Below are positions 35,086 to 64,000 of a DNA stretch of 64,000 nucleotides, in pieces. Location of the stretch: assembly GCA_031260295.1 (NCBI GenBank), contig JAIRKE010000001.1, positions 248,001 to 312,000 of the forward strand, written 5' to 3'. Below the pieces are notes generated by a model. The model saw only the letters and a list, made by a program, of their open reading frames with translations, was not told the origin of the DNA and ran no database searches. This DNA comes from Azonexus sp. (lineage in GTDB: Bacteria > Pseudomonadota > Gammaproteobacteria > Burkholderiales > Rhodocyclaceae). The position numbers and the translations under genes were made by a program. Numbering within the stretch: position 1 is the stretch's first letter; every line of letters starts with the position of its first letter.

Positions 35086-36306
35086 ATGTCCAACATCCTC
35101 TACCTCACGCACCGCATTCCCTTTCCGCCCGACAAGGGCGACAAGGTGCGCTCCTGCAACCTACTTCGCCACCTGCTGCGATCGCATCGCGTTTTCCTCG
35201 GCACCTTCGTCGATGCTCCCGAGGATGTCGCGCACATTCGGACCCTAGAGAAAGTGTGCGCCGGGCTCCACGCAGTTCGCCTCCGTCCCAGCCTGGCCAA
35301 GCTGCGCAGCATCAACGGCCTGTTTGCCGGCGAGCCGCTGACCCTGCGCTATTACCGCGACGCCGGCCTGCAGAAATGGGTCGATGAAATCTGCCGCACA
35401 GAGCAGATCGACGCCGTCGTCGTCTTCAGTTCGGCAATGGCCCAGTATGTCGAGGACAAGCAGCGAATGCCGATCTTGATCGATTTCGTCGACGTCGATT
35501 CGGCGAAGTGGACCCAGTACGCGCCCCGGCACCACTGGCCGATGTCCTGGATCTACCGCCGCGAGGGCCGCCTGCTGCTGGCCTGGGAACGGCATACGGC
35601 GGCCCAGGCGGCGCGCTCCTTTTTCGTCACCGAGGCCGAGGTCGAACTGTTCCGCGAGTTGGCTCCGGAATGCAGCGTGCGCGTCGAAGCCATGGGTAAC
35701 GGCGTCGACGCCCGCTATTTCACGCCGGCCGCCGGCCGGCCGTCGCCCTTCCCGGCCGACGAGGAGGCCGTGGTGTTCACCGGCGCCATGGACTACTGGC
35801 CGAATATCGACGCCGTTACCTGGTTCGTCGCCGAGATGCTGCCGGCGCTGCGTAGCCAGCGCCCGCAGGCGCGCTTCTACATCGTCGGCCGCAACCCGAC
35901 GGCGGAAGTCCGCGCCCTGGCCGGCAAGCACGTCGTCGTTACCGGTACCGTGCGGGACGTTCGCCCCTATCTGCAATATGCCGGCGTGATCGTCGCGCCG
36001 CTGCGCATCGCCCGCGGCATCCAGAACAAGATTCTCGAAGCCATGGCCATGGAACGCCCGGTGATCGCCACCACCGCCTGCGCCGCTCCGGTCGAGGCGC
36101 TGCCGGACGAGGAACTCCTGACGGCTGATTCCGCCCAGGAATTCGTCGCCGCCATCGTCGCCCAACTGGCCGATCCGGCCGCCGCCGCCGCCATTGGCCG
36201 TGCCGCGCGCGCCCGCGTTCTCGGCCGCTATAGCTGGCGGGCGCACATGAGCCGCATCGACGCCTATCTGGGCAACGCCACCTCGACCCTCCTGCCATCG
36301 AGATGA
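35086..36306 (+). CDS. Glycosyltransferase, exosortase A system type 1 (GT4-like)
   Basis: The 406-residue product begins MSNILYLTHRIPFPPDKGDKVRS, the mark of the PEP-CTERM/EpsH1-associated sugar transferase group. It has the GT-B C-terminal half with VVFTGAMDYWPNIDAVTWF, FYIVGRNPTAEVRAL and GIQNKILEAMAMERPVIATT. It should add one sugar to the lipid-linked repeat in the cytoplasm. The stop overlaps the exosortase start by four bases (ATGA). Confidence 0.92.
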   Translation: MSNILYLTHRIPFPPDKGDKVRSCNLLRHLLRSHRVFLGTFVDAPEDVAHIRTLEKVCAGLHAVRLRPSLAKLRSINGLFAGEPLTLRYYRDAGLQKWVDEICRTEQIDAVVVFSSAMAQYVEDKQRMPILIDFVDVDSAKWTQYAPRHHWPMSWIYRREGRLLLAWERHTAAQAARSFFVTEAEVELFRELAPECSVRVEAMGNGVDARYFTPAAGRPSPFPADEEAVVFTGAMDYWPNIDAVTWFVAEMLPALRSQRPQARFYIVGRNPTAEVRALAGKHVVVTGTVRDVRPYLQYAGVIVAPLRIARGIQNKILEAMAMERPVIATTACAAPVEALPDEELLTADSAQEFVAAIVAQLADPAAAAAIGRAARARVLGRYSWRAHMSRIDAYLGNATSTLLPSR

Positions 36307-37835
36307 AGGTCGCCATCCAGCCGCCGCTTTCGCCCGCCTGGCGGCAAGCGCTGCTTCTGCTACCGCTGCTGATCGCCTGGCTAATCTACTGGTACTGGGA
36401 TACCGCCGCCGCCATGGTCGGCATCTGGTACCGCTCGGAAACCTATGCCCACGCTTTCCTGGTGCCGCCGATCACGCTGTGGCTTATCTGGCGCCAGCGG
36501 GCGGCACTCCTCGCCGAGCAGCCGCGGACCTCGCTGCTGCTCGCCGTGCCGGTCGCCGGCACCACGCTGGCCTGGCTGCTCGGCGAGTTGACGGCGGTTA
36601 ACGCGCTGACCCAGTTCGCCCTGGTCGCCACGCTGGTGCTCGCCATCATGGCCTTGCTCGGCCTCTCGGTCAGCAAGCGCCTGGCCTTTCCGCTGGCTTT
36701 CCTGTTCTTCTCGGTGCCCTTCGGCGATTTCATGATGCCGAAACTGATGGAGTGGACCGCCGCCTTCACCGTCCTGGCACTGCGCGCGAGCGGCATCCCG
36801 GTTTACCAGGAGGGCCTGCAATTCGTCATTCCCTCGGGCCATTGGTCGGTCGTCGAAGCCTGTAGCGGCATCCGCTACATCATCGCCTCGGTCACCGTCG
36901 GCACGCTGTTCGCCTATCTCAACTACACCTCGCTACGCCGCCGTCTGCTCTTCATCGGCGTCTCTTTCGTCGTGCCGGTGATCGCCAACTGGCTGCGCGC
37001 CTACATCATCGTCATGCTCGGCCACCTTTCCGGCAACCGGATCGCCACCGGCGTCGACCACCTGATCTACGGCTGGGTCTTCTTCGGCGTGGTGATCCTG
37101 ATCATGTTCCTGATCGGCGCGCGCTGGGCGGAACCCGAAGCCGCCCCGACGCCACCGGCCGAAGCCGCCGCGCCGCCAGTCGGCACTACCGGCAGGGCCT
37201 GGCTAGCCGCGGGCGTCGTCGCCCTGATCGCCGCCGCCGGCCCGCTCGCCTTCATCGCCATTGACCGGGCCGACCGCGCCGGTCCGGTCACCCTCGCCGC
37301 CCTACCGCCCCCGGCCGGCTGGCAGGAAGGCGCCGATCTGCCGTCCTGGAAACCCGATTTTTCCGGCGCCTCGGCAGAATTGCAAACATCCTTCCAACGC
37401 GATGGCCAGAGTGTCGGCCTCTACATCGGCTACTACCGCAAGCAGGATTACCGGAGCAAACTGGTAACGTCGACCAACACGCTGGCCGCCAGCACCAACA
37501 AGCAGTGGCGCGTCGCCGCCCGCGACACCGTGGCTCCGGCAGCGGCCGGCCTGCCGGCCCAGGTTGTCGCCGCCGACCTGCTCGAGACCGGCAGCAGCCC
37601 GGAAGTCCGCCTGCGGGCCTGGCAGTGGTACTGGATCGACGGCCGGCTAACCGCCTCGGACGCCCACGCCAAGCTGCTGACCGCGCTGTCCCGCCTGTCC
37701 GGCCGTGGCGACGATGCGGCGGTCGTCATCCTCTACGCTCCGGCCGCCACCGCCGCGTCGGCATTGCCCGCCTTCGCCGCCGCTAGCGCGCCGGAAATCA
37801 ACCGCCTGCTGGCCGCCACCCGCGAGCAACGATGA
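36303..37835 (+). CDS. xrtA: Exosortase A fused to an EpsI-like domain
   Basis: XrtA is the membrane transpeptidase-like enzyme that recognises PEP-CTERM tails. The first about 290 residues hold about eight membrane segments. The three catalytic positions are all present: Cys187 in VEACSGIR, Arg232 in NWLRAY and His253 in GVDHLIYGW. After a Pro/Ala-rich linker and one more membrane segment, the last about 200 residues form an EpsI-type periplasmic domain (LPPPAGWQEGADLPSWKPDF, and GLYIGYYRKQDYRSKLVTSTN). The gene overlaps its neighbours by four bases on both sides, so expression is tightly coupled. Fused XrtA-EpsI is the usual form in this subtype. Its visible substrate is the PEP-CTERM protein at 24082. 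Confidence 0.96.
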   Translation: MKVAIQPPLSPAWRQALLLLPLLIAWLIYWYWDTAAAMVGIWYRSETYAHAFLVPPITLWLIWRQRAALLAEQPRTSLLLAVPVAGTTLAWLLGELTAVNALTQFALVATLVLAIMALLGLSVSKRLAFPLAFLFFSVPFGDFMMPKLMEWTAAFTVLALRASGIPVYQEGLQFVIPSGHWSVVEACSGIRYIIASVTVGTLFAYLNYTSLRRRLLFIGVSFVVPVIANWLRAYIIVMLGHLSGNRIATGVDHLIYGWVFFGVVILIMFLIGARWAEPEAAPTPPAEAAAPPVGTTGRAWLAAGVVALIAAAGPLAFIAIDRADRAGPVTLAALPPPAGWQEGADLPSWKPDFSGASAELQTSFQRDGQSVGLYIGYYRKQDYRSKLVTSTNTLAASTNKQWRVAARDTVAPAAAGLPAQVVAADLLETGSSPEVRLRAWQWYWIDGRLTASDAHAKLLTALSRLSGRGDDAAVVILYAPAATAASALPAFAAASAPEINRLLAATREQR

Positions 37836-48951: not shown

Positions 48952-50283
48952 TCAGGCGGTAAACGGACGCGGCCTGGCTTGTAGCCACTGGGACAGGATC
49001 ATCAGGATCCATACCAACTCGCCATAGTAACCCGGGTATTGCGGCAGATAATCCTTGAGCAGCCGGTCAAGGAAATCGGCGCGGACGATTCGGCAGCCGC
49101 GCAGATAATCCAGGGAATCGACAGCCAGCTTGCGTAGCGCCGGGTGTTCGACCGCCCAGACGCCGAACGGCAGGCCAAAGCCGTGTTTCTTCTTGGTGAT
49201 GATTTCCGGCGGCAGAAAATCCTTCAACGCCTCCTTGAAGAACCAGCGCAGCGTCAAGCCTTTGATCTTAAGTTCGGGGTCGAGGCGCAGCGAAAAATCG
49301 ACCAGGCGATCATCGAGCAAGGGGAAGCCGACCTCCAGCCCGGCCAGGCGGGTGGAACCCAGCACTTTCGGCAGATCGTTGTCGGCCAGGGTGTACTTCC
49401 AGTCGTACCACAGCATCCGGTTGACCAGCGCATGAGCGTCGGCGGCGCGCCAGTTTTCCCGCTGCTGGCGCAAGGTGTCCTGTGGTTCGACCTGGGCAAG
49501 AAACTCCGGCGTCAGCACCGTGTCGAGACCGAGGCGCGAGAGCAGATTGTACATCTGCATCCGGTCCGGCATCGGCACGCTGGCCTGCTCGACATAACTG
49601 ACGGCCTTCTTGACGCCGGGAATCTTGCCCGGCCAAGCGCAGCCGGTCAGCAACGGCTGCAACAGGCCGCGTCGCAGAAAACCGGGGATCCGCTCATAAG
49701 CGCCGAACACCCGCTGCTTGGCATAGCGGACATTGCCGCCGAACAATTCATCGCCGCCGTCACCGGCCAGAATCCGGGTCAAACCCACCTCGCGCGCCGC
49801 CTTGGCGCAGTAGTAGGCGGGCAGCACCGAAGAATTGCCGAAGGGCTGATCGTAAGAGGTGGCAACCTGGTGAATGCCCGCCACCAGATCGTCCGGCGTC
49901 ACATAGTAAGCATGATGCTCGGCGCCGAAATGCCGGGCAGCGATGCGGGCATACTCCATTTCGTCATAGCCCGCCGCCGCAAAACCGATGGAAAAGGCGC
50001 GCGCCGGCTGCCCGGTCACTTCGCGCAACAGCCCGGCCACCGTCGAACTGTCGGTGCCGCCGCTGAGAAAACAGCCGGTCTCGCCGGCAATCTGGTCGCG
50101 CACGCCATCCCGCAGAATCTCGCGGAATTCCGCCTTCAAGTCGGCAAACGACGCCCGTTTCCCCTCGTCGAAATGCGGCTTCCACCACGGCGCAACCGTC
50201 AGCCGACCATTCTCGAATAAAGCGTAATGACCGGCCGGCAGCCGGAAAACATCCTTGAACACCGTCCGCGGCGCCGGGATCAT
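48952..50283 (-). CDS. Asparagine-synthase-like protein, main part downstream of an in-frame stop
   Basis: This frame of 443 residues holds the synthetase domain, with the PP-loop FLSGGTDSSTVAG (SGGTDS at 74-79), ILAGDGGDELFGGNVRY and GFPLLDDRLVDFSLRLDP. It starts at MIPAPRTVFKDVFRLPAGHY, which in relatives is the middle of the protein and not a start. The preceding codons on the same frame are TAC-CTT-TAG-TTC-CAC; the usual text is YLYFHMIPAP. So a Tyr codon has become TAG and this frame is continuous with 50290-50628. It may be re-initiated at this ATG or be dead. Confidence 0.85.
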   Translation of the reverse strand: MIPAPRTVFKDVFRLPAGHYALFENGRLTVAPWWKPHFDEGKRASFADLKAEFREILRDGVRDQIAGETGCFLSGGTDSSTVAGLLREVTGQPARAFSIGFAAAGYDEMEYARIAARHFGAEHHAYYVTPDDLVAGIHQVATSYDQPFGNSSVLPAYYCAKAAREVGLTRILAGDGGDELFGGNVRYAKQRVFGAYERIPGFLRRGLLQPLLTGCAWPGKIPGVKKAVSYVEQASVPMPDRMQMYNLLSRLGLDTVLTPEFLAQVEPQDTLRQQRENWRAADAHALVNRMLWYDWKYTLADNDLPKVLGSTRLAGLEVGFPLLDDRLVDFSLRLDPELKIKGLTLRWFFKEALKDFLPPEIITKKKHGFGLPFGVWAVEHPALRKLAVDSLDYLRGCRIVRADFLDRLLKDYLPQYPGYYGELVWILMILSQWLQARPRPFTA

Positions 50284-51699: not shown

Positions 51700-54093
51700 T
51701 TAAATTGGCCCGGCACAGGCCATCTGACCGCTCCTGTTTTTCAACATAAAACAGAGGAACAGTAACACATAGAATAGTAAGGCCAGCCGTGGCACGTCGA
51801 TCAGGCTGTCGAACATCCCGACCACCAAGAAGCCGGTGATCGCCGCCGAGAGATAGGGGGCCAGTTCATGCTCCCTGGCCCGGCCCAGATTCAGCTGCCA
51901 CAGGGCCGCTACGGTTAGCAGCAGGAACGATGCCAAGCCGAACAAACCTTGGTCGAACAGAACATTGACCAGGATGTTTTTGGCATGCCAGGGCAAATGA
52001 TCGCGGTCGCTGCTGAAGAACCAGCGCTGCATGTCCTGGTTGAAATCGCCGTTGGTCAGCAGCGATTCACCGCCCGGCCCGAGCAGGATGATGTCATCGA
52101 CGTCGGCAGCGCCGCTCATATTGCCGATGCCCAGTGAGAACATGCGTAGGCGCGGCGCATACCAGGGGCCGCCATCGAGCAACGGCCCGGACAGCCTGAT
52201 CGTGACCGCCTGCCAGTCCTCGCCGGACTTAACGTTGGCATGCCCACTGGCGCAACGGGCGACATAGAGCAGGTGCTTTTCGCAGACCTCGGCTAGCAGG
52301 GTGACCTTGTTCTTGGCCCGGACTTTCAGCGATACGGCGAACGGCCCGGCCGTGCCAAACGGCAAACGCTGGGAGACGCGGAAAATATCGCCGAAGCTCA
52401 GCGGATGCCGGGGCGCGACCAGCGACAGCCAGGCGCCCTCGTCGTCGCCGACCCATTGATAGGTGCCGGGAAACTTGCTGTCCGGCGAGGCGAAGAAATA
52501 ATTCGCCGGATAGCGCCCCAATCCCTTGCCAAAGCCAAGGTCGAACGGCGTCTCCAGCATGGTCATACTGAGCGACCAATGATCGAGACGCCCCTCCATG
52601 TCTTGCGAGGATGTCGAGAAGCGCCCGCCCATATACGCGCCGCCGGCGAATACCGCCATCACGGTGCTGACGGCGACCGCCGCGCTGATGAAAGCGGCTT
52701 GCCAGCGCCGCTCTTCCGGCCACAGCGGTCGTTTGGCGAACACGGCGCAAAGCGTCGCCGCGAACACCACGGCCAGTGCACCCAGCATGCCCCACAAGGC
52801 AGCGCCGCCGCCCCAGTGATGGGCGGCGCTGGCCGCCATCAGGCCCAGGGCGAACCAGCCGGCAGCGAGAAAAATCCGCTGACTGCCCTGAATCGCACCA
52901 GGCAGTTGCCACAGGACAACAAACAACGCGGCAAGCAACAGGAGATACAGGACATACGGCCCCTTGGGCAGCAAAGCGGCCAACAGCGCCAGCGCCCCGC
53001 CGACCATCAAGCCCAGCGCGACCCCGGCAACCCATTGGGCCACGGCGATGCCGCGCAGGTGCTGCGGCAGCACCAGGGTCACGGCGAGCACGCCGAGCAG
53101 CGCCAGCAAGCCGCGATAGCCGCCGTTGGCGAATACCAGACCGGCCATGGCCGCCAGCACGAGCAGCGCAATCGCCCAGCGCAACGGCGTCCATGCCGGC
53201 TGCTGCCCTGGCTGGCGGGCGCCGGCCGGCCGATGCGTCCGCCAGGCCAGCATTGGCAGGCTGACCAGCAGCGCCAGATAGACGCCCCGTGAGAAAGTGG
53301 TCAGCGCGACATAGGCGGCGAGCACGATCAGGCCGAGAGCCAGCGCATGACGCGCCGGCGTTCGCGCATGGCGCAAGGCATAAACGGCGAATGGCGCGGT
53401 CAGCAGCAGCCAGCCGTCGAGCGCCGCGCCGCCGACGTGCATTTCCCAGAACAGGGCCGTCGAGCGGTAATCGCTGGAAAAATTGAGCAGGCCGGTAAAG
53501 GCCAGGCGCTCCCACAACGCCGCCAGCCCCGCGCTGCCAAGGCCGAGCGCCAGCCCCCAGGCCAGTTGCCGCCCGGCTTGCTGGTTGGGATCGGAGAACA
53601 GGCGGCGCAGCAGCGGCAGCAGCAGCAAAGCCAGGAAAAAGCTCTTGCCGATGCGGATGCTGTTCATCGGGCCGTCGTAGCCCTGATACCAGCCGAACTG
53701 GAAGCCACCGGCATCGGCAAAACCGCGCGCCAGCGAAATCAACAGCGACAACGCCAGCAAGGACGAAAGCGCGAGCAACAGCCGGGAAAGACGATGGCGA
53801 TACAGCGGCGGCCCGTCGACCAAGGCGCGGAGATAGCCGCCGCCGGCCACGGCCAGAACCAGCAGATCGCTTTCCTCGAAGCTGAACCAGCCCGTCCACG
53901 GCGCCAGACCAATCACCGGCAGCAGCGCCGGCAGCGCAACCAGACACCAGGCCGGACAGAGAAAGGCAACCGCGCCGACGAGCGCAAACAGCGACAGCGC
54001 CGCGCCCGGCCCGAGCGGGTAATGCCAGGCGAGAAAACCGCCCAGCCCGAAGGCCGCAAGCGCCGCCAGCAGCTTGCCTGCTCGGCTCAGCAT
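51700..54093 (-). CDS. Very large O-antigen ligase/polymerase-like membrane protein with a beta-rich insert
   Basis: The 797-residue product has about fifteen membrane segments in its first 500 residues and one or two near the end. The ligase-type loop is visible as SQDMEGRLDHWSLSMTMLE, FDLGFGKGLGRYPANYFF. Unlike ordinary Wzy/WaaL proteins of 400-450 residues, it carries a soluble segment at about 555-690, with SFGDIFRVSQRLPFG, AVSLKVRAKNKVTLLAEVCE, WQAVTIRLSGPLLDGG and ADVDDIILLGPGGESLLTNG, which reads like a carbohydrate-binding jelly-roll. The DHLPWHAKNILVNVLFDQGL end returns to the ligase pattern. It may hold the growing polymer at the active site. Confidence 0.82.
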   Translation of the reverse strand: MLSRAGKLLAALAAFGLGGFLAWHYPLGPGAALSLFALVGAVAFLCPAWCLVALPALLPVIGLAPWTGWFSFEESDLLVLAVAGGGYLRALVDGPPLYRHRLSRLLLALSSLLALSLLISLARGFADAGGFQFGWYQGYDGPMNSIRIGKSFFLALLLLPLLRRLFSDPNQQAGRQLAWGLALGLGSAGLAALWERLAFTGLLNFSSDYRSTALFWEMHVGGAALDGWLLLTAPFAVYALRHARTPARHALALGLIVLAAYVALTTFSRGVYLALLVSLPMLAWRTHRPAGARQPGQQPAWTPLRWAIALLVLAAMAGLVFANGGYRGLLALLGVLAVTLVLPQHLRGIAVAQWVAGVALGLMVGGALALLAALLPKGPYVLYLLLLAALFVVLWQLPGAIQGSQRIFLAAGWFALGLMAASAAHHWGGGAALWGMLGALAVVFAATLCAVFAKRPLWPEERRWQAAFISAAVAVSTVMAVFAGGAYMGGRFSTSSQDMEGRLDHWSLSMTMLETPFDLGFGKGLGRYPANYFFASPDSKFPGTYQWVGDDEGAWLSLVAPRHPLSFGDIFRVSQRLPFGTAGPFAVSLKVRAKNKVTLLAEVCEKHLLYVARCASGHANVKSGEDWQAVTIRLSGPLLDGGPWYAPRLRMFSLGIGNMSGAADVDDIILLGPGGESLLTNGDFNQDMQRWFFSSDRDHLPWHAKNILVNVLFDQGLFGLASFLLLTVAALWQLNLGRAREHELAPYLSAAITGFLVVGMFDSLIDVPRLALLFYVLLFLCFMLKNRSGQMACAGPI

Positions 54094-54123: not shown

Positions 54124-55371
54124 TCAGCAGCCTCCGGTCGCCGTATCGAGCAGCCGGGCCAATTGCGCCGTCCGCCCCTCGCGCGAGGCGGCGGCGACCG
54201 CCTGCGGCGTGGGCAATACCGCCTGGCCGGCGCGGATCGCCTCAAGAAAGGCCGGCAGCGCCCGGCGGATGTCGTCCGCCGAATCGAGGCGAACGATGTC
54301 GGTCGCGCCGGCCTGGCGCAGCGTTGCCGCCGTGTCGCCCTGCGGATCGGTCGAGGCCAGGATCGGCCGGTTGGCGCGCAGATATTCGTAAATCTTGGCC
54401 GGAATCTGCTCGTTGCAATTGGCCGCCTGCATGACCAAGAGGCCGTCGGCGGCGAGCATCTCGGCCAGCGCCTGGCGATACGGCACGGGCGGTTGGCAGT
54501 CGATCAGATCGCCGATGTCATAGCGAGCCGCCAGCGCTTGCAGCAGATCATCATGCACCGAGGCGCGAAAGCGCACGACCAGGCTGCCCGGCGCAATCGC
54601 GCCAGCCGCCTTGAGCTGGCCGAGGGCGGCGAAAAATTGCGTCGGATCGCGCTCGGCCGGGTAGACGATGCCGCTGTGCAGCAACGTGATCGCTCCCGGA
54701 TTCAAAGGTTGCCGCATCGCGTCGACCGGCGCAGCGGCGGCGAAGGTTTCTTCGTCATAGCCGTTTTCCAGCACTGTTACCCGTTCAGCATGATCCGGGT
54801 AGCGCTGGCGATAGGTGTGCGCCGCGCCCGGCGTCGTGAAGGTGCTGAAGCGCGCGCTACGCAGCGCTTCCTGTTCGATCGCCAGAAAGCTCCGCCGCGT
54901 CAAGGGATCGGCCGGATAGCCCTCCTGCGCCATCGGGTCGCGGAAATCGGCGAGCCACGGCAGGCCGCTCCGCCGCTGCAATTCCGCGCCAATCAAATGG
55001 GCGGTGGCAATGGGATAAGTCGACCAGATCGCCCGTGGCTTGAATTGGCGGATCATCCGCAGCCCCTCGCGGACGGCGGCATATTTCCAGCTAACCCAGC
55101 GGTCGGGCCGGGCCATGGCGCCGATATAGCGGCCGCCGATCGCCAGATGGCGCGCGGTATCGAGCGCGAAAGCGCGGCGCACCACGACGCCCGGAGGAAT
55201 ATCGCCCATCAGATCGTCGCTGGTACGCTCGTAGGCACGCGGATCGGCCGACAATACCAGCGGCTCCCAGCCGAACTTGGGCAGGTGCTGGACGAAGCGC
55301 AGGGTGCGCTGAATGCCACTGCTGCCCGCCAGAGGCGGGAAATGGTAGGCGATCATCAGGACGCGGTTCAT
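54124..55371 (-). CDS. Glycosyltransferase (GT4-like)
   Basis: The 415-residue product begins MNRVLMIAYHFPPLAGSSGI, followed by RTLRFVQHLPKFGWEPLVLS, the typical N-terminus of polysaccharide GT4-type enzymes. Other marks are PWLADFRDPMAQEGYP, TVLENGYDEETF, LLHSGIVYPAERDPTQFF, and the donor-site KIYEYLRANRPILASTDPQG. It lies 30 bases upstream of the large ligase gene on the same strand, probably in one transcript. Confidence 0.88.
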   Translation of the reverse strand: MNRVLMIAYHFPPLAGSSGIQRTLRFVQHLPKFGWEPLVLSADPRAYERTSDDLMGDIPPGVVVRRAFALDTARHLAIGGRYIGAMARPDRWVSWKYAAVREGLRMIRQFKPRAIWSTYPIATAHLIGAELQRRSGLPWLADFRDPMAQEGYPADPLTRRSFLAIEQEALRSARFSTFTTPGAAHTYRQRYPDHAERVTVLENGYDEETFAAAAPVDAMRQPLNPGAITLLHSGIVYPAERDPTQFFAALGQLKAAGAIAPGSLVVRFRASVHDDLLQALAARYDIGDLIDCQPPVPYRQALAEMLAADGLLVMQAANCNEQIPAKIYEYLRANRPILASTDPQGDTAATLRQAGATDIVRLDSADDIRRALPAFLEAIRAGQAVLPTPQAVAAASREGRTAQLARLLDTATGGC

Positions 55372-55501: not shown

Positions 55502-56041
55502 TCATTTTGGATAGCGCAAGTCATCATCAGAAATTTTTTCGCTCCGCATCTGCTCAACTTCAGACAAAAACTTCTTAGCAATATCCGATTTGGAAGATTT
55601 AAGATAATTTTCGTAATTAACACAGCCTATTCTGAAGTTTGACATTCCCATGTTGAGAATCTGCTCTTGCGTCATTTCTACCTTATCGTCAAAGGCCACA
55701 CCCATTTGATCAAGATTTGCCCAATAGACACCAATATTGTACCCCGACATTCTCCATGCAACTATATTCAAATTCTTTTCCACTTCTTGCGTAAAATTTG
55801 AATAGCGTCGGCTCCAATCTTGATACGCAGCGTCATTTCGTTCGACCAGATCGGGGAAATATTGATTGCATGTCTTTCTTATAGCGCCAATTTCACGAAT
55901 TGCCCCGAATATCGTAACTGTAGCAGATGTATAGTTTGCACTTTCCTTGTCAGAGGTTATTTCCTCAGCCCGTGCAGAGAGGACAGTACTCATAGTGGAC
56001 ATTAAAAACAGTGAATAGACAAATTTCATCGGAACAGTCAT
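55502..56041 (-). CDS. Small exported protein of unknown function, AT-rich
   Basis: The 179-residue product has a signal peptide (MKFVYSLFLMSTMSTVLSAR, cut near AEE) and a mainly helical, charged remainder with two cysteines (KTCNQYF and RIGCVNY). No family is recognised. The DNA is much more AT-rich than both flanking genes and is bordered by 130 and 112 bases of AT-rich non-coding sequence, which suggests a recent arrival. AGGGG stands upstream of the first ATG. Confidence 0.6.
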   Translation of the reverse strand: MTVPMKFVYSLFLMSTMSTVLSARAEEITSDKESANYTSATVTIFGAIREIGAIRKTCNQYFPDLVERNDAAYQDWSRRYSNFTQEVEKNLNIVAWRMSGYNIGVYWANLDQMGVAFDDKVEMTQEQILNMGMSNFRIGCVNYENYLKSSKSDIAKKFLSEVEQMRSEKISDDDLRYPK

Positions 56042-56153: not shown

Positions 56154-58304
56154 CTACTGCCCCTCCGGCAGGCGGCGCAGGCACCTCCTGACTGCCGCCA
56201 GCGCGACGCCGATCCGGCGGCCGGCTATTTCCTTGAGCGCCAGCGCGCAGCCGATCAGCGTGCGCGGGTTGTAGGCGACGATGCCCCGGCGCTCCCGGCG
56301 GTCGCTCATCCAGGCCTGCTTGTAGGGATCGTCGCCGATCAGGAAATCGACTTCCTCGACCCGGTCGCCCTCGATGACCTGCTGCATCATAAAGCTGGTC
56401 AACACCTTGCCCGGCGACCAGGCGGCAAAGTTCTGGTGGTAGGCCAGCTTGTAGATACTGGCCTTGCCCTGGCCGACCATCCACAACTGGGCGGCGACCG
56501 GCCGCCCGCGCAGGCGGGCGATGCCGAGCCGCAGCATGCCGTTGGCGGCCAGCAGGCGGATCAGCGCCGGCACGAAATCGGGGTACGGCTCGGGTTTCTT
56601 CCAACTGGCGGAGTAGACTTCCGCGAAGGCGGCGATGCCCGCTTCGACGCCGGCAGAGTCGCGGATCAATTCAAGCGCGCCGCCGTCGGCGATGAATTTT
56701 TTGGTACTCCGCTTGATGCCGCTGCGCAGGTTGACGCTGCGCTGGCGCAGATAGCCCTCCCAGCCATCCCGCACCTTGAGGAACCAGTTGCCGAAGCAGA
56801 AAAAGGTCAGCGGAATCCAGCCGCTGGCGCGCAATTCGTTCAGCAAGACGCCATAACCCGGCGACTCGGGGTCCATCGGCGCGAAATAGATCATGTGAGC
56901 GCCGTGATTTTCCCGCGTCGCTGCATTCAGCAGATGGCGCACCGTCAGCGGATCGCAGCCCTGCCCGAGCAGCGGCGAATACAGCGAGGTGTAGTAATTG
57001 CTCAAGGCCTCCAGCTTGCGCAGGTAGCCCTGGCGAACCCGGCGCAGCGGCAGAACCGCCCGTGCCCGCCCGTGGTCGGCGAGATAGTAATAACGGACGT
57101 CGGCATCGTCGGGATAAACCTGCCGTTGCAGCAAGTCGAACCAGTCGATCGACACATCGAGATTGCCGTTCAGCGCGAATTCGCCAAATGGCGATTCGCC
57201 CGACGGAAACTCATCGAGCCGGGCGCAACTGCGCACCTCGACCGGCGGCGTCGCGTTTTCCGGCTGACGCATGCGTTGCGAGCCGCGCAACTGGCGTTTC
57301 ACCGTGCGGAACAAGGTATAGGCGACGATGGCGTAATCGCTGCGGAACAACTGGATGCTGTGGATGGCAGCGCCGAAAGTCGCCCACTCGGCCTGGTCGC
57401 GCGTGGCGTTGGTATAGAACTCGACGACCCGTTCCGGGTTCTCGGCCAGTTCGCGTTCGAGCAAGCGATACAGCAACAGCCGGCCGGGCGCGAAACGGGA
57501 CAGCGTTTCGTCGTAGGCGGTCTTGAGAATCACCAGCATGCGTGGATTGCCGATCAGTAGGCGGGAGGCGGCCAACTGGTCGTCCATCGACAATTCGCAG
57601 ATCTCGGCCTGCCCGGTGGCGGCGAAATTGGCCAGCACCTCGGTGTAGAAACGCCCCTGAACGTTGTCGGCCGCTACCGCCGTGCCGGCTTCGCCCTTCC
57701 AGCCGGCGCTCTCCAGTCCGCCGAAACGGCCGACGCCGTCGGCCATGGCCGCCGCTTGACGCTGGCAGGACAATTCGACGCCCACGGCCTCGCGCTCTAG
57801 GCGATTGAAATAGCGGCGGATATTGCTGCGCAGATTCTTCGGACGCTCCCGCCAATAGGCATCGAAACCGCTTTCTGGCACAACGCCGATGGTGTTGGCA
57901 TGCGGGAAAACGATGCTTTGCCCCCGGACTGGCTCAAAGGACGGGGCATAGCGCGGATCGACGGCATGGAATTCGATGCTCCAGGCAAAACCGGGCAGCG
58001 CCTGCAACAGGCTTTGCAGCAGCGCGGCGTCGGCAACCAGGATCGCCGTGACCTGCGCCTGTGATGGCCGAAAAATCGCCCAGCGCCCCAGGCCGTGCGC
58101 TTGCAGGATCACCGCGCCGCGCACAACGCCCTGTTCGCGGTACAGACACAGGCGCTCGTTGCCATCGGCGAAATATTTGAGCAGCGGGCCGACGAAACGG
58201 CTGTCGAAATACGGATGCGCGTCGTACAGCTCGCCGTTGAGGCGATCCCAGTCGGCCGCGTATTCGGCGAAGGCGGCGGCGGCCGGCAGCAACGTCCAAC
58301 TCAT
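56154..58304 (-). CDS. Tandem FemAB/GNAT (BioF2-like) fusion protein
   Basis: The 716-residue product consists of two similar halves. The first has YWRERPKNLRSNIRRYFNRL and ends with RLLLYRLLERELAENPERVVEFYTNATRDQAEW. The second has GYLRQRSVNLRSGIKRSTKKF, then YSASWKKPEPYPDFVPALIR, GRPVAAQLWMVGQGKASIYK and SPGKVLTSFMMQQVIEGDRVEEVDFLIGDDPYKQAW. Both halves match the CelD/BcsL/FemAB-type acyltransferase pattern of polysaccharide clusters. A single protein with two such units is unusual. It overlaps the DegT-type gene by four bases. Confidence 0.8.
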   Translation of the reverse strand: MSWTLLPAAAAFAEYAADWDRLNGELYDAHPYFDSRFVGPLLKYFADGNERLCLYREQGVVRGAVILQAHGLGRWAIFRPSQAQVTAILVADAALLQSLLQALPGFAWSIEFHAVDPRYAPSFEPVRGQSIVFPHANTIGVVPESGFDAYWRERPKNLRSNIRRYFNRLEREAVGVELSCQRQAAAMADGVGRFGGLESAGWKGEAGTAVAADNVQGRFYTEVLANFAATGQAEICELSMDDQLAASRLLIGNPRMLVILKTAYDETLSRFAPGRLLLYRLLERELAENPERVVEFYTNATRDQAEWATFGAAIHSIQLFRSDYAIVAYTLFRTVKRQLRGSQRMRQPENATPPVEVRSCARLDEFPSGESPFGEFALNGNLDVSIDWFDLLQRQVYPDDADVRYYYLADHGRARAVLPLRRVRQGYLRKLEALSNYYTSLYSPLLGQGCDPLTVRHLLNAATRENHGAHMIYFAPMDPESPGYGVLLNELRASGWIPLTFFCFGNWFLKVRDGWEGYLRQRSVNLRSGIKRSTKKFIADGGALELIRDSAGVEAGIAAFAEVYSASWKKPEPYPDFVPALIRLLAANGMLRLGIARLRGRPVAAQLWMVGQGKASIYKLAYHQNFAAWSPGKVLTSFMMQQVIEGDRVEEVDFLIGDDPYKQAWMSDRRERRGIVAYNPRTLIGCALALKEIAGRRIGVALAAVRRCLRRLPEGQ

Positions 58305-59506
58305 TGACAGCCTCCGGCAACCGGCGCGCGCAGCACTTTGCTCAGCGCCGCCAGCAGCCAGTCCATTTCATCGTCATGCAAGGATTGATGGCAAGGCAGA
58401 TGCAGCAGGCGCAAACGATAATCGCGCGCCACCGGACAAGCGGAAATCGCCATTTCATCCCAGCGCCAAACCGGCATGCCAAGTTGTTTGAGCCAGTAAA
58501 AATGCGGCAGCGGCTGCTCGATCAGCAGCGGAAACATGTAGGGCACGACGGTTTCCGGCAACTCCGGGTAGAGCGGGCGGCAATGCGGCAAATCGGCCAC
58601 GGCTTGCAGCCAGCGCCGGTAATGGGCCTGGCGGCGGCTAATGACGGCGCTCAGCGAGGCATGTCCAGCCAGCCAGCGCGAACCGCGCAGGGCGGCGATG
58701 CGGGCGGATTTTTCTTGGTACTGGCGCGAATGACCCAGCCGCGACAACGGTGCGTCGTTGCCGACTGGCGGCATTTGCCCGGTCAGCGCCGCCAGTTGGC
58801 CGTCGAGCGCGGCGATATCAGCGGCGTTGACCGAGGGTTGCCGGGCCGCGTCGAAGCACTGCTTGAGGCCGCGCAGTTCGTCCCGCCAGTTAGCTGGACG
58901 CACCGTCGCGCCGGCCAGCGCCGCCGGCTCGGCAGCATGCAGCCAGCCGCCGTCGGCACAAGGAAAAAATTTGTACGGGCTGGACGCCATGAACTGCCCG
59001 TAACGCCCTGCCCCCGCCGCCCGATAGCGTTCGGTGAACAAGGTATGCGAACAATCCTCGACCAGCACGATGCCGCGCGCCGCGCACCACGCTTGCAGCC
59101 AGGAGAAATCGCGGACGAAGCCGAAAAAATGCGTCGCCAGCAAGGCTTTGACCGGCTTGGCCGAAGCCGCGACCAGCGCATCGAGCGCCGCTGGATCGGG
59201 CGTCAGGTCAGCCAGCAGCGGATAGAGCAACACCTCGGCGCCGAGCGCCAGCGCCGGATCGAGCATGGTCACGCAGTGGTAGGCCGGGGCCAGCAGCGCG
59301 CCGCCGCCAACCAGCCCGGCCCGCCGGTAGGCTTCGCCGAGGGCATAGCGGCCACGGCTGTAATGCACGCCAGCCAGCAGGGGGACGCCGGCCAGCAACG
59401 CGGCATCGTCCGCGCCGGAAGCTTTGAAGCCGCGCGGCAGCACCGGCGCGCGCGGGCGCGGAAAGCGGCAGGGGGCGGGATCGAAAACCTGATAGTCGAG
59501 AGACAC
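58301..59506 (-). CDS. DegT/DnrJ/EryC1-type PLP-dependent protein
   Basis: The 401-residue product is an aspartate-aminotransferase-fold protein of the DegT group. The PLP contacts are seen in LVEDCSHTLF (Asp151, His154) and SSPYKFFPCADGG (Lys179, Schiff base). VPLLAGVHYSRGRYALGEAY is near the N-terminus. Typical members aminate keto-sugars, but the sequence is divergent (TVVPYMFPLLIE, CPVARDYRLRLLHLPCHQSL). It lies between the tandem acyltransferase and the hydrolase genes, so it may make an amino compound or sugar for the modification module. Confidence 0.82.
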   Translation of the reverse strand: MSLDYQVFDPAPCRFPRPRAPVLPRGFKASGADDAALLAGVPLLAGVHYSRGRYALGEAYRRAGLVGGGALLAPAYHCVTMLDPALALGAEVLLYPLLADLTPDPAALDALVAASAKPVKALLATHFFGFVRDFSWLQAWCAARGIVLVEDCSHTLFTERYRAAGAGRYGQFMASSPYKFFPCADGGWLHAAEPAALAGATVRPANWRDELRGLKQCFDAARQPSVNAADIAALDGQLAALTGQMPPVGNDAPLSRLGHSRQYQEKSARIAALRGSRWLAGHASLSAVISRRQAHYRRWLQAVADLPHCRPLYPELPETVVPYMFPLLIEQPLPHFYWLKQLGMPVWRWDEMAISACPVARDYRLRLLHLPCHQSLHDDEMDWLLAALSKVLRAPVAGGCQ

Positions 59507-59523
59507 GATCAGCGCTCCGCGAT

Positions 59524-60384
59524 TCAGGACGGCAGCTCTCGCCGCAGCCAGTCCAGCGTCGCCGCCTCGACCGTCCGCCGCAGGGCACGCGATGAAAAAG
59601 TGTGATCGGCAGCAGGCACGTCGAGGCGCGTCAAATCGGGCTTGGCCAGCGCACGGGTAGCAACGGCATCGGCCCGGCAGGCTTCGAGGAATTCCTTGGC
59701 GGTGTAATCGTCGCCGCTGAGCAGCAGCAGCGACGGGCCGGGGAAATCCGCCAGCGCGCGCATCATCCGCGTCTGGAAAGGTTCCGCCGCCGCCGAGGTC
59801 TCGGCCGCCCCCGCATGCCGGGCGCGCAGCCAGTTAGCGGCCAGATCCCGCACCGCCCGCGCAATGCCCAGCCGGCCGCCAAGCAGCTTGCGCCAGAACT
59901 CGCCTTGCAGCAGCCGCTGCACGTAATAATGTTTGATATGCGTCCGCGCCAGGGTCGCTTCCGAACGCGCCCAAGGATTGAGCAGCGCCAGACCGCCGAG
60001 CGCTGCATCCCGCGAGCCGTCCCAGTACAGCAAGGCGGCCGTGGCGGCGTCGCACAAGCCCCATAACACGATGCGTTCAAGTTGCGGGCAGTGCTGGCGA
60101 AAGGCCGCCAGCGCGGCGGCAATGTCCGCGTCGACGGCCGTGAAATCGCGCAGCTCGCCGCTGCTGTCGCCCATGCCGCGATAATCGAAGCGTAGCGCCG
60201 GATAGCCGGCCGCCGCCAACGCCCGCGCCAGCAACAGAAACTGGCGATGACTGCCAGCGCGGTACTGCGGCCCGCCGACGACGATCAGCACGCCGACCGT
60301 CGCCGGCGCATCCGGCACAGCGACGATGCCGAGGAGCGTCTCGCCGGCACAGGGGAAAACGATGGCCTGTTCGCTATAACTCAT
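59524..60384 (-). CDS. Exosortase A system-associated hydrolase 1 (alpha/beta fold)
   Basis: The 286-residue product begins MSYSEQAIVFPCAGETLLGI and has VGGPQYRAGSHRQFLLLARA and LRFDYRGMGDSSGE, the mark of exosortase-associated hydrolase type 1. The nucleophile elbow reads LWGLCDAAT, with Cys111 where serine is usual. The likely catalytic His261 lies in VPAADHTFSS. A cysteine nucleophile could give acyl transfer or thioester chemistry. The start overlaps the hydrolase 2 stop as ATGA; the longer frame upstream lies in that gene. Confidence 0.9.
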   Translation of the reverse strand: MSYSEQAIVFPCAGETLLGIVAVPDAPATVGVLIVVGGPQYRAGSHRQFLLLARALAAAGYPALRFDYRGMGDSSGELRDFTAVDADIAAALAAFRQHCPQLERIVLWGLCDAATAALLYWDGSRDAALGGLALLNPWARSEATLARTHIKHYYVQRLLQGEFWRKLLGGRLGIARAVRDLAANWLRARHAGAAETSAAAEPFQTRMMRALADFPGPSLLLLSGDDYTAKEFLEACRADAVATRALAKPDLTRLDVPAADHTFSSRALRRTVEAATLDWLRRELPS

Positions 60385-61190
60385 GCCAGCCCCGCCAGAG
60401 CCGCCCGCGTCGCAGCGAGCAATGCCGGCGCTTCCTCGATTTCCGTCGTCTGCCAGAAGGCCGGGCCGCGAACGACGCTGGCCTCGACCGTGAAACCGGC
60501 GGCCCGCCACTGCTCGATGCGCTTGATGGCGGCCGGCGTTAGCGTCGCCTCATCGCGCAACGAGGTTTCCAGCCAAACGACCCGGCCGGCACACCCCGGC
60601 GGCGGCGACAATTCGGCCTGTTCCAGACCGGCGGCCAGGGCCGGCGCGACTTCGTAGCCGGCGATTTCAACCGTTTGCCCGGCGGCCAGCTGCGCGCGCA
60701 GTTGCTCGCCAATCGCCTTGGCCTGGCCGGAAGCCATTTCACCGGCCATCTTCAAACGCATGAATTGCTGCCAATGCGGCTTGCCGGAAACAACCGGCTG
60801 CCAGAACAGAAAATCGGCGGCTTCCGGCAATTCGGCGGCGGCCTCGGCCGCCAGCAGGCAACCGGCGCGCAAGCCCCAGAGCATCAGCGGCGCGGCCGAA
60901 CGCTGGCGCAAATAATGATAAGCGGCCAGCACATCGGCGCGCCAGGCCGCCCAGGTAGCATCGGCGAAATCGCCGCTGCTGTCGCCGCAGCCGAGCAGGT
61001 CGATTTGCAGCACGTCGCAGCCGGCAGCGGCCAAGGCGCGCGACTGCAACGCCGCCATGCGCCGGGATTTGTTCATTTCCTCGGCGAAGGGATGCAGATA
61101 CAGCGCCGCGACCTTGGCTTTCCTCCCCTGCGCCGGGTGGAACAGGCAGAAGTGCCGCCCGTCGCCAACGGCGAGAAAATCAGGCTGCAT
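60381..61190 (-). CDS. Exosortase A system-associated hydrolase 2 (alpha/beta fold, no serine at the elbow)
   Basis: The 269-residue product starts MQPDFLAVGDGRHFCLFHPA, with ALYLHPFAEEMNKSRRM and IDLLGCGDSSGDF, the signs of exosortase-associated hydrolase type 2. The elbow reads WGLRAG (106-110), with Arg108 at the nucleophile position, so a normal serine-hydrolase mechanism cannot work at this site. It could bind substrate or carrier protein, or form a complex with hydrolase 1. It lies 16 bases after the acyl carrier gene. An upstream Met at 61232 would overlap that gene and is less likely. Confidence 0.9.
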   Translation of the reverse strand: MQPDFLAVGDGRHFCLFHPAQGRKAKVAALYLHPFAEEMNKSRRMAALQSRALAAAGCDVLQIDLLGCGDSSGDFADATWAAWRADVLAAYHYLRQRSAAPLMLWGLRAGCLLAAEAAAELPEAADFLFWQPVVSGKPHWQQFMRLKMAGEMASGQAKAIGEQLRAQLAAGQTVEIAGYEVAPALAAGLEQAELSPPPGCAGRVVWLETSLRDEATLTPAAIKRIEQWRAAGFTVEASVVRGPAFWQTTEIEEAPALLAATRAALAGLA

Positions 61191-61206
61191 AGTGGATATT
61201 GCTGGA

Positions 61207-61458
61207 TCAACCAGCCAGCTTGGCGTCGACAAAGGCTACCAGCGAGCCGACCGTGGCGAAGGTGCTGCCCTCGATTTCGTCATCGTCGACGGCAAAGCCG
61301 AAACGCTCCTCGAAACCGGTAATCAACGCCACCACGGCCATCGAATCGAGTTCCGGAATGGCCCCCAGCAGCGGCGTATCCAAGGTATAGGCAGCCGCCC
61401 GGCCATGCAAACTGAGAATTTCGTCGAGCAGCGACAGGACTTCCTTCTGGGTGTTCAA
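61207..61458 (-). CDS. Acyl carrier protein of the exosortase A locus
   Basis: The 83-residue product is an acyl/peptidyl carrier protein with the phosphopantetheine site ELDSMAVV (Ser39) and typical helices (VLSLLDEILSL, LITGFEERFGFAVDDDEI). It is the first gene of the minus-strand module that goes on with two hydrolases, a PLP protein and a tandem acyltransferase. A dedicated carrier suggests that an acyl or aminoacyl group is tethered and transferred. The matching ligase is not in this window. GGAG lies upstream of the start. Confidence 0.92.
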   Translation of the reverse strand: MNTQKEVLSLLDEILSLHGRAAAYTLDTPLLGAIPELDSMAVVALITGFEERFGFAVDDDEIEGSTFATVGSLVAFVDAKLAG

Positions 61459-61590: not shown

Positions 61591-62754
61591 ATGAATAACG
61601 CCAATAGCATAACAGAACGTTTAGCTGGCTTCCGAAATTGGCAACGCTTGGCTGAGCAACAAACCGGCAAGAGCGCCCTGCAGCAGGTCCGCGAAATCCT
61701 GGCCTTACGCAACATGGGAGGATGCTGCGGCCTTAGCGACTATTATTGGTACAAGCTCTACGACGATGCCTACCTAAACGGTAATGGCCGCTCCGACTTT
61801 CTCGGCTGGCGCCTGCAAGCGCAGTTGAGCCAGGCGTTGAATCCGCGCCATGTGGTGCTGCCGGCCTGGGACAAGGTGGTGTTCATGATGTTGGCCGATG
61901 CGGTGGGCCTGCCTGTCGTTCCGACCGTGGCGACTTTTAAGGCTTGCCCGCGCCTGCCATCAGTCTTCGGCCAGCATCTGCGCAGCTATGCCGAGGCTGC
62001 CGAATTTCTGCGCAATCCAGATGTCTATCCGCTGTTCGGCAAGCCGGCCTGGTCGCAACAAGGGTATGGAAGCGCCTACCTGGAGCGCTATGATGCGACA
62101 CAGGATCAGTTATGGCTGCTCAATGGTGGCAGTATCGCCGTCGAGGATTTCCTGGCCCGACTCGACACGCCGGTCGATCACCGCTACCACCGCCCGGAAT
62201 GCGGCTTCCTGTTCCAGCAACCGCTGCGGCTGGCTCCATCGATCGAGCAATTGACCGGCTGGAAAGCCATTTGCGGCGCCCGCGTGATATGCCTCAATGG
62301 CCCCGGCGAATCGATGCCGTTGCGGGCGCTCTGGAAAATCGCCGTGCCGCCCAATCACGTCGACAATTTCAGCCTCGGCAAATACGGCAATCTGCTGGCC
62401 GACATCGATCTCGCCAGCGGTCGCATCTCCCGCGTACTCGGTGGTTTTTGGCCGGAAACCCGGATATTTGAAGAGCATCCGATTTCCGGCAAATCGTTTA
62501 CTGAATTTTTCCTGCCGGACTGGCCCAAGGTGCTCGAATACTGCCAGGCGCTCGGCCAACTGATCCCGCTGATGCGCATCCAGCACATCGATTTCGCCTT
62601 TACCGACAGCGGTCCGCGCATCCTCGAACTGAACGATATCGGCGCCACCGAGTTCGCCCAGTTGCACGGGCATGGCCTGCTGACCCACCGGACGCGCCGC
62701 TTCATCAAGCAATTTGGCAACGCCAAGACCCATTCGTGGATCAACGACCTGTAG
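61591..62754 (+). CDS. Sugar-transfer-associated ATP-grasp protein
   Basis: The 387-residue product resembles the ATP-grasp family found beside sugar transferases in capsule clusters. Marks are HVVLPAWDKVVFMMLADAVG, YPLFGKPAWSQQGYGS (ATP lysine region), VEDFLARLDTP, CGARVICLNGPGESMPLRAL, KYGNLLADIDLASGRI, and the metal site MRIQHIDFAFTDSGPRILELNDIG near residue 335. Members are thought to ligate an amino acid or carboxylate to a sugar or peptide. The start has GGGAAATC nearby. The stop lies nine bases before the Mur-ligase-like gene, so the pair is a likely operon. Confidence 0.85.
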   Translation: MNNANSITERLAGFRNWQRLAEQQTGKSALQQVREILALRNMGGCCGLSDYYWYKLYDDAYLNGNGRSDFLGWRLQAQLSQALNPRHVVLPAWDKVVFMMLADAVGLPVVPTVATFKACPRLPSVFGQHLRSYAEAAEFLRNPDVYPLFGKPAWSQQGYGSAYLERYDATQDQLWLLNGGSIAVEDFLARLDTPVDHRYHRPECGFLFQQPLRLAPSIEQLTGWKAICGARVICLNGPGESMPLRALWKIAVPPNHVDNFSLGKYGNLLADIDLASGRISRVLGGFWPETRIFEEHPISGKSFTEFFLPDWPKVLEYCQALGQLIPLMRIQHIDFAFTDSGPRILELNDIGATEFAQLHGHGLLTHRTRRFIKQFGNAKTHSWINDL

Positions 62755-62763
62755 GATAAATCA

Positions 62764-64000
62764 GTGAAACTGCGTCAAACCCCCCTGTTGCTAAAACAAC
62801 AATGGCATAGAATATCCGCTGCAATCGAATGGCGATTGCGCTCCCGTCTGGGCGACAATACCGTTGACGGGGCGATCTACCGGGCTGGCCTGCATGTTCG
62901 CCCCTATTTGAAGCGTGCCGTTTTTTTCGGCATCGCCGGCAGTGTCGGTAAAACAACGGCCAAGGATCTTCTGGTCGGCATTCTCGCCAGCCGTGGCAAA
63001 ACCATCGGCAATCCGGTATCACTCAATGCCGCGCCGGAAGTGGCGCGTACCGTATTGCGGGTACGTCCCTGGCATCGCTACTGCGTGGTGGAGCTAGGAG
63101 AAACAGCGCCAGGATCCCTGGATAAACATCTGGCGGTACTTCACCCGACCATTGGAGCAATCACCAATGTCGGTGACGATCACTTCAGCGCCTTCGGATC
63201 ACACGAAGCCATCGCGAGCGAATTCGCCAAACTGGCGCAGGCACTCCCTGCCGATGGCTGCCTGATCCTGAATCGCGACGACGAACGCGTCTTCGCGCTA
63301 CGTCACCAGGCAGCTTGCCGGGTAATCACCTTCGGTCAAACGCCGGGCGCGGATTTGCTGGCCAGCGATATCTCCTCGGTCTGGCCAGGAGCCCTGCGAT
63401 TCACCGTCACATTCAACGGTGAGCGGCAAGATGTGCAGACCCAGCTATATGGCCGACATCTTCTGACATCGGTGCTGGCGGCCATTGGCAGCGCGCTGGC
63501 CGCCGGTTTGACACTCGGCGAATGTGCCCACGGCATCGCTGCTGTCACACCGCCCCAAGGACGAATGCAGCGGGTATGCCTTCCTGGGGACATCACCTAC
63601 ATTTGCGATGATTACAAAGCCCCTGCATGGACAGTGGGAGCATTGCTCGATCAATTGGGCGAAGCAAAAGCCCGGCGCAAGATATTCGTGCTGGGAACGA
63701 TTTCAGACTGCCACCATACGCCGATTCAAACATTCAAATTCGCCAAAAGGTCGCTCGAAGTTGCCGACATTGCCATATTCACCGGTCGCTATGCCTCGGC
63801 TGCGCTCAAAGCAAAACAACCGGACAACGAAGGCCGGTTGTACGCGTTTTCACATATCCGCGACATTGCCTTATTTCTCGAATCAACACGTCAACCGGGT
63901 GACTTGATCGTACTCAAAGGAAGCAATAACAAAGATCATCTGAGCCGCCTCGCCCTATCACTCAGCCAACCAGTCAATTGTTGGCTGAATGACTGCGAAC
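62764..64000 (+). CDS. Mur-ligase-like protein (MurF/CapB type), truncated by the window end
   Basis: The frame from GTG at 62764 stays open for 412 codons to the end of the window. AGGA stands seven bases upstream. Motifs are those of the Mur ligase fold: the P-loop FFGIAGSVGKTTAKDLLVGI near residue 57, AAPEVARTVL, VVELGETAPG, ITNVGDDHFSAFGSHEAIAS, the LLTSVLAAIGSALAAG block, and DDYKAPAWT in place of MurF's DDSYNANP. Such enzymes add an amino acid to a carboxyl group with ATP. The true MurF usually lies with division genes, so this copy, next to an ATP-grasp gene in a polysaccharide locus, probably has another substrate. The last 40 or so residues are missing. Confidence 0.85.
   Translation, partial: MKLRQTPLLLKQQWHRISAAIEWRLRSRLGDNTVDGAIYRAGLHVRPYLKRAVFFGIAGSVGKTTAKDLLVGILASRGKTIGNPVSLNAAPEVARTVLRVRPWHRYCVVELGETAPGSLDKHLAVLHPTIGAITNVGDDHFSAFGSHEAIASEFAKLAQALPADGCLILNRDDERVFALRHQAACRVITFGQTPGADLLASDISSVWPGALRFTVTFNGERQDVQTQLYGRHLLTSVLAAIGSALAAGLTLGECAHGIAAVTPPQGRMQRVCLPGDITYICDDYKAPAWTVGALLDQLGEAKARRKIFVLGTISDCHHTPIQTFKFAKRSLEVADIAIFTGRYASAALKAKQPDNEGRLYAFSHIRDIALFLESTRQPGDLIVLKGSNNKDHLSRLALSLSQPVNCWLNDCE

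Follow-up and report, generated by a model that had tools for sequence, protein, structure and literature searches.

Exopolysaccharide loci of the exosortase A (XrtA) type combine the families TIGR03098 to TIGR03101 with XrtA, TIGR03019, TIGR03097, three stp glycosyltransferases, EpsB_2, PrsK, PrsT and a PEP-CTERM response regulator, and the locus described here shares this set. The closest described chemistry comes from other settings. Butirosin synthesis uses a stand-alone carrier and a decarboxylase in the set BtrI/BtrJ/BtrK, where BtrK decarboxylates carrier-bound glutamate, glutamyl-BtrI (PMC7857480, in its accessible part). For vicenistatin (VinN/VinL/VinO) and bolagladin (BolO/BolC/BolN), an adenylating enzyme, a stand-alone acyl carrier protein (ACP) and a pyridoxal phosphate (PLP) decarboxylase form a trio, which is established in the literature for the former and proposed for the latter. 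According to the accessible text of PMC11284099, VinN places 3-methylaspartate onto the stand-alone ACP, and decarboxylation by VinO follows; the BolO/BolC/BolN trio is a proposed route to beta-alanyl-ACP. Here we analyse a row of five genes at positions 56154-61458 of a 64,000-nucleotide stretch of an Azonexus sp. genome, hereafter the window (C50:248001-312000; contig C50 runs to 321,104 bases). We tentatively read the row as part of an aminoacyl carrier-protein module of the XrtA exopolysaccharide system, joined by an accessory pair for amino-sugar formation and acyl transfer. The genes are transcribed on the minus strand from 61458 to 56154 in the following order:

61207..61458, minus strand: ACP, stand-alone acyl or aminoacyl carrier protein of 83 amino acids with a TTG start (PF00550, 23.5 bits, gathering score 20.8; phosphopantetheine serine in the motif DSM)
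60381..61190, minus strand: hydrolase 2, exosortase A system-associated, alpha/beta-hydrolase family, with Arg108 at the place of the nucleophile (TIGR03101, 329.6 bits, cut-off 202.75)
59524..60384, minus strand: hydrolase 1, exosortase A system-associated alpha/beta hydrolase with Cys111, Asp226 and His261 (TIGR03100, 347 bits, cut-off 168.45)
58301..59506, minus strand: DegT-type PLP aminotransferase of a divergent subfamily, with Lys179, Asp151, His154, His77 and Arg53 (PF01041, 51.6 bits)
56154..58304, minus strand: transferase of two fused FemX-like (double GNAT) units, here called FemAB (two stretches of PF13480; Foldseek)

These five genes and their order had been named in an earlier reading of the window (the original prediction), and both were borne out by the coordinates and by NCBIfam and Pfam matches. 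The description of the row as packed with ATGA overlaps was half right, because overlap exists at only two of the four junctions, between hydrolases 2 and 1 and between the DegT and FemAB genes, while the other two are short gaps. The same prediction held that the standard ligase and decarboxylase of XrtA loci are absent and that the DegT protein and the transferase fusion take their place. Looking beyond the window, we found both enzymes in this genome near the module. The TIGR03098 ligase is located at C50:313963-315519, approximately 2 kilobases (kb) past the window end (793 bits, cut-off 592.35), and the TIGR03099 decarboxylase is the first gene of contig C47 (C47:43-1245; 612.5 bits, cut-off 478.45). 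Since C50 ends with the same 22 bases with which C47 begins, the decarboxylase probably lies about 5.6 kb after the ligase. Further genes after it on C47 code for EpsB_2 (an XrtA-system sugar transferase), PrsK, the PEP-CTERM response regulator and PrsT, and each passes its cut-off. All four core families, TIGR03098, TIGR03099, TIGR03100 and TIGR03101, thus exceed their curated cut-offs in this genome, which also has an exosortase A gene. In G177, a genome of the same genus, ligase and decarboxylase stand together and adjoin the module. The apparent absence of the two enzymes is an effect of the window edge.

To see how the DegT gene is distributed, 199 genomes of the family and 14 control genomes were surveyed. 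DegT was counted at 80 bits or more (the best match in the next new genome reached only 36.9 bits), hydrolase 2 at E values up to 1e-30 (68 genomes, 66 over cut-off) and the ligase at E values up to 1e-150 (105 genomes, 103 over cut-off). No control genome had a hydrolase 2 or ligase match at these thresholds; at looser ones most controls had a ligase and a decarboxylase match, none of them over cut-off. DegT was present in 26 of the 199 family genomes, and every one of these also had hydrolase 2 and the ligase (one, G051, is among the two hydrolase-2 genomes under the cut-off, with 197.6 bits against 202.75). By comparison, hydrolase 2 was found in 42 of the 173 genomes without DegT (Fisher p 1.7e-14, a value inflated by relatedness). 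At the genus level, all 14 genera with DegT are also hydrolase-2 genera, of which there are 31 among the 68 (p 2e-6). The two genes lie on one contig and at most 12 kb apart in 23 of the 26 DegT genomes. Seen from the other side, 42 of the 68 hydrolase-2 genomes have no DegT.

A scan of named genomes yielded 266 DegT relatives, of which the best 80 loci were kept; these are partly shared with the family sample (L088 comes from G177) and include Zoogloea, Accumulibacter, Aquincola, Massilia, Dechloromonas and others. FemAB was found near DegT at 77 of the 80 loci and at all 40 loci with full flanks, defined as at least 20,900 bases of sequence. Two of the three loci where it was not seen, L101 and L134, are near contig ends, and the third, L162, is unexplained. 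Under a strict same-strand neighbour rule FemAB stands beside DegT at 66 of 80 loci. The 40 full-flank loci contain the ligase in 31 cases, the ACP and hydrolase 1 in 28 each, the decarboxylase in 26 and hydrolase 2 in 24. Of the named loci, 37 had shown no hydrolase 2 in their stretch of sequence. Fourteen of these, and one locus that did have the gene (L110), made up a hand-picked set of 15 DegT genomes. All 15 contain hydrolase 2 (13 over cut-off), and the decarboxylase was over cut-off in 14; the match in the fifteenth, G206, has 219 bits, the level of ordinary diaminopimelate decarboxylases, and was not counted.

A variant pathway that lacks ligase and decarboxylase and uses DegT and the FemAB fusion in their place was rejected as very improbable. 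What speaks for it is only the window itself, which ends 2 kb short of the ligase, while the ligase, the decarboxylase and the overlap of the C50 and C47 ends refute it. The relatives, which often have ligase and decarboxylase beside DegT and FemAB, also speak against it. Because ligase and decarboxylase are nearby, because every one of the 26 DegT genomes carries both hydrolase 2 and the ligase, and because 42 of 68 hydrolase-2 genomes manage without DegT, the DegT/FemAB pair is an accessory and no replacement; in these samples it was not seen without the core. The original prediction had named two observations that would speak against it. The nearby ligase and decarboxylase were found, while independent variation of DegT and FemAB was not. 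From the hydrolase-2 genomes without the pair it also follows that the amino-sugar and transfer steps lie outside the core. No common substitute gene was seen among the 15 unassigned frames (ten plus five, several of them possibly not genes) scanned at hydrolase-2 loci without DegT; this survey took in 20 loci, of which two, in G143 and G144, belong to genomes with DegT and the other 18 to the 42 genomes that lack it. Viral contigs gave no match to DegT protein patterns. In G008 (L055:9328-12885), DegT and FemAB exist in rearranged pieces and the hydrolase-2 and ligase matches are whole; either the accessory pair has been lost there or the assembly is at fault.

For an aminoacyl group built on the carrier, the decarboxylase provides a stronger argument than the ligase. 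Its profile matched BtrK best among PDB sequences (330.8 bits, E 1e-97), followed by a diaminopimelate decarboxylase with 214.7 bits (E 1.9e-62). A single-sequence PDB search agrees, the protein being nearest to BtrK and far nearer to it than to ornithine decarboxylases. In NCBIfam its lysA match (245.9 bits) stays under the cut-off of 297.9. The activating enzyme here is AMP-forming (AMP, adenosine monophosphate), whereas BtrJ of the butirosin pathway is an ATP-grasp ligase, and the setting is an exopolysaccharide locus and not an antibiotic one. In contrast to vicenistatin and bolagladin, no polyketide or peptide synthase was seen that could take the product.

The evidence that the ligase is specific for an acidic amino acid is mixed. 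VinN (3wvn) is the best stand-alone enzyme among its PDB matches with 212 bits (217.3 bits in one stretch in a second search), in a list headed by the multidomain synthetase LgrA with at most 121 bits per stretch. An acidic amino acid as substrate would call for an Asp to bind the amine and a basic residue to bind the alpha-carboxylate. In the ligase, Asp224 and Arg324, placed against VinN by motif only, are present in 72 of 72 sequences; in the ACP, Asp38 and Ser39 each occur in 72 of 72 distinct relatives. Residue counts here and below refer to distinct sequences, mostly from loci found by DegT, after low-scoring or short rows had been dropped (hydrolase 1, three; hydrolase 2, one; DegT, six; ligase, 13; ACP, none). 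An alternative, possible but in our view unlikely, is that the enzyme is a true acyl-CoA or acyl-ACP ligase. The carrier would then hold a fatty or hydroxy acid, the FemAB-like enzyme would N-acylate an amino sugar with this acyl group, and the decarboxylase would make an amine for another step. NCBIfam indeed describes TIGR03098 as an acyl-CoA ligase (AMP-forming), and after its own family the protein matches fatty-acid ligase models (290.4 and 280 bits) better than the amino acid adenylation domain (264.2 bits). However, its PDB matches start with amino-acid adenylating enzymes, the Asp in the amine-binding motif is found in all 72 sequences, and the decarboxylase resembles BtrK, whose clade is separate from the polyamine decarboxylases in the published tree (PMC7857480, accessible part). 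The putative core product is most likely beta-alanyl-ACP or 4-aminobutyryl-ACP.

The accessory pair distinguishes this locus from many other XrtA loci, together with a set of ATP-grasp genes and a Mur ligase fused to a peptidyl-tRNA hydrolase domain (Mur-Pth). The DegT protein has the sugar-aminotransferase fold with the PLP lysine, Lys179, which is present in 90 of 90 sequences. In the 50 structural alignments listed, it is 13-21% identical to its matches; the known enzymes of the type are sugar-nucleotide aminotransferases such as PglE, PseC and GDP-perosamine synthase. Where DegT enzymes usually have Thr in the phosphate-binding motif, this subfamily mostly has Arg53 (76 of 90 sequences carry Arg and 9 Ser; the remaining 5 have another residue or are unaligned). 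It also differs from sugar-nucleotide aminotransferases by YHC and CHQ motifs, which are nearly invariant within it. The model of the FemAB protein (predicted local distance difference test, 85) matched FemX best in Foldseek (E 6e-11, template modelling score by target 0.53), followed by 2wpw, a tandem GNAT of another kind from clavulanic acid synthesis (7.5e-11), and further by streptothricin peptide synthases and MprF. The FemAB alignment had no match among PDB sequences up to E 1. The double-GNAT fold is thus that of FemX, MprF and the streptothricin aminoacyl transferases, but here a chain consists of one to three FemX-like units, as counted at 58 loci (a FemAB frame lies directly downstream of DegT at 62 of 80 loci, and four of these frames are cut by a contig end).

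The FemX-like units could instead take aminoacyl-tRNA, as FemX does, with the ACP branch serving a different acceptor. The Foldseek matches to FemX and to aminoacyl-tRNA-dependent peptide synthases, and the Mur-Pth gene near the ACP, are in line with this possibility. Nevertheless, every genome with DegT among the 199 of the family and the 15 picked by hand also had hydrolase 2, which fits a shared acyl group better, and Mur-Pth exists in only four of the 199 genomes, so that we consider a separate tRNA route rather doubtful.

Mur-Pth (62764-64647, 627 amino acids) is rare also beyond the family: full-length relatives were found in the four family genomes, this one included, and in one of 368 further genomes of the class, another of which has the Mur part only. 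Four copies stand in tandem beside hydrolase 1 in G195 and one next to hydrolase 1 in G139, while no module gene was found within a 19.5 kb stretch around Mur-Pth in G198 and G535. Two sugar-transfer-associated ATP-grasp proteins (61591-62754 and L010:9172-10338) flank it, and the same three genes stand together again in relatives such as L104 and L176. Within a limited library, none of the papers retrieved in a search on this fusion contains the term peptidyl-tRNA hydrolase.

In alignments with solved serine hydrolases, hydrolase 1 has Cys in the place of their Ser, and Cys111, Asp226 and His261 are each present in 75 of 75 distinct sequences. Hydrolase 2 has Arg there, and Arg108 is present in 78 of 78. 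An invariant Cys in the one protein and an invariant Arg in the other at the predicted nucleophile place are new here. Hydrolase 2 is probably a non-catalytic partner, because it has no nucleophile at that place. The two labels would thus need correction: no hydrolase activity is expected of hydrolase 2, and hydrolase 1 is expected to act via cysteine. The latter also sets hydrolase 1 apart from VinJ of the vicenistatin pathway, which is a serine enzyme. A triad of Cys, Asp and His is also found in another alpha/beta hydrolase, the polyhydroxyalkanoate (PHA) synthase PhaC, which takes acyl groups from thioesters (PMC5509742, in the accessible part). This likeness is one of residues only, since hydrolase 1, compared with NCBIfam and Pfam at E values up to 0.001, matched no PHA synthase family.

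Taken as an aminoacyl carrier-protein module with an accessory pair, the locus may work as follows. The ligase would adenylate the distal carboxyl of an acidic amino acid, most likely Asp or Glu, and load it onto the ACP. Judging from homology, the BtrK-like PLP decarboxylase would then strip the alpha-carboxyl from the tethered residue, giving beta-alanyl- or 4-aminobutyryl-ACP. The DegT protein, to go by its fold and lysine, may aminate a keto-sugar nucleotide and so provide an amine acceptor. On this amine the FemX-like units, one to three per chain, would place aminoacyl groups, with ACP or tRNA as the donor; here fold and linkage are our guides. Hydrolase 1, with Cys/Asp/His for the serine triad, together with the presumably non-catalytic hydrolase 2, may edit or transfer the acyl group of the ACP thioester. 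The earlier proposal that an amine or aminoacyl group is built on the carrier and then moved stands in outline, in view of the decarboxylase nearest BtrK and the FemX/MprF fold of the transferase model; on the ligase side it remains as mixed as described above.

Several points weigh against this pathway. Arg53 replaces the usual Thr of DegT enzymes, and the alignment of the DegT sequence to solved enzymes covers the N-terminal half only. The tRNA-dependent relatives of FemX use no ACP. For the ligase, the total bits of LgrA exceed those of VinN, and the fatty-acid ligase models score above the adenylation domain. The nearness of the decarboxylase in this genome depends on the 22-base overlap of contig ends, and DegT/FemAB is missing from most hydrolase-2 genomes (the 42 of 68 mentioned above). 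For these reasons we hold the reading, which builds on gene content, linkage, conserved residues and predicted folds, as a tentative one. It is tempting to go further and to speculate that the exopolysaccharide bears omega-aminoacyl groups (beta-alanyl or 4-aminobutyryl), made on the dedicated carrier and put on DegT-made amino sugars without tRNA, that the Cys-type hydrolase 1 and its Arg partner serve as an acyl shuttle, and that the one to three FemX-like units set the number of groups; this full scheme is speculative and, taken as a whole, improbable.

The surroundings of the row comprise the following genes:

54124..55371, minus strand: glycosyltransferase, which extends the gene row (PF13579; present at 23 of 80 related loci)
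51700..54093, minus strand: Wzy/O-antigen-ligase-like membrane protein (PF04932, 22.3 bits, under the gathering score of 31.7; 19 of 80 related loci)
48952..50283, minus strand: AsnB-type amide synthetase without the N-terminal glutaminase part (TIGR03108 match from position 190 of the 628-position profile onward; 37 of 80 related loci)
36303..37835, plus strand: exosortase A (XrtA) of the core exopolysaccharide locus 26108-47420 (TIGR03109, 343.1 bits, cut-off 208)
61591..62754, plus strand: sugar-transfer-associated ATP-grasp protein, divergent to the ACP (PF14397, 80.1 bits)
62764..64000, plus strand: MurF-like ligase, cut by the window end (window-equivalent end 64647), 627 amino acids in full, with a C-terminal peptidyl-tRNA-hydrolase domain (PF08245, PF02875 and PF01195 on L010:7265-9148)

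The locus 26108-47420 contains exosortase-A export, polymer and sorting genes, and the XrtA-system families FemAB TIGR03019, O-ligase TIGR03097 and three stp glycosyltransferases were also matched. The AsnB-type synthetase at 48952-50283, without its glutaminase half, may take some amine instead of ammonia as the partner of a carboxylate. A signal-peptide-like protein of 179 amino acids is encoded at 55502-56041, in the interval that separates the FemAB gene from the glycosyltransferase gene, with a guanine plus cytosine content of 39.8% against 61.6% for the window; it had no match in NCBIfam, Pfam or among the related loci and looks like a recent insertion. A protein of 223 amino acids at 44829-45500 has a weak tetratricopeptide repeat match and no Pfam match, and its relatives directly adjoin hydrolase 1 in L056, L057, L060, L061 and L062.

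A literature search over titles and abstract openings in a limited library retrieved no function assigned to the module, which is no proof that none exists. The 2006 PEP-CTERM paper (PMC1569441) has no mention of ligase, decarboxylase, hydrolase, carrier protein or aminotransferase, and in PMC9850573 a search for words of this kind met only T4 DNA ligase. In NCBIfam, TIGR03098 to TIGR03101 are all hypothetical equivalogs, that is, families without an assigned reaction. If the aminoacyl-carrier reading is true, every enzyme of the core has a reaction that can be tested, and the exopolysaccharide is predicted to carry an amine-bearing group. Some of the genera with relatives of the DegT locus have been studied as floc formers. 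An amine-bearing group, if present, would bear on matrix charge and flocculation.

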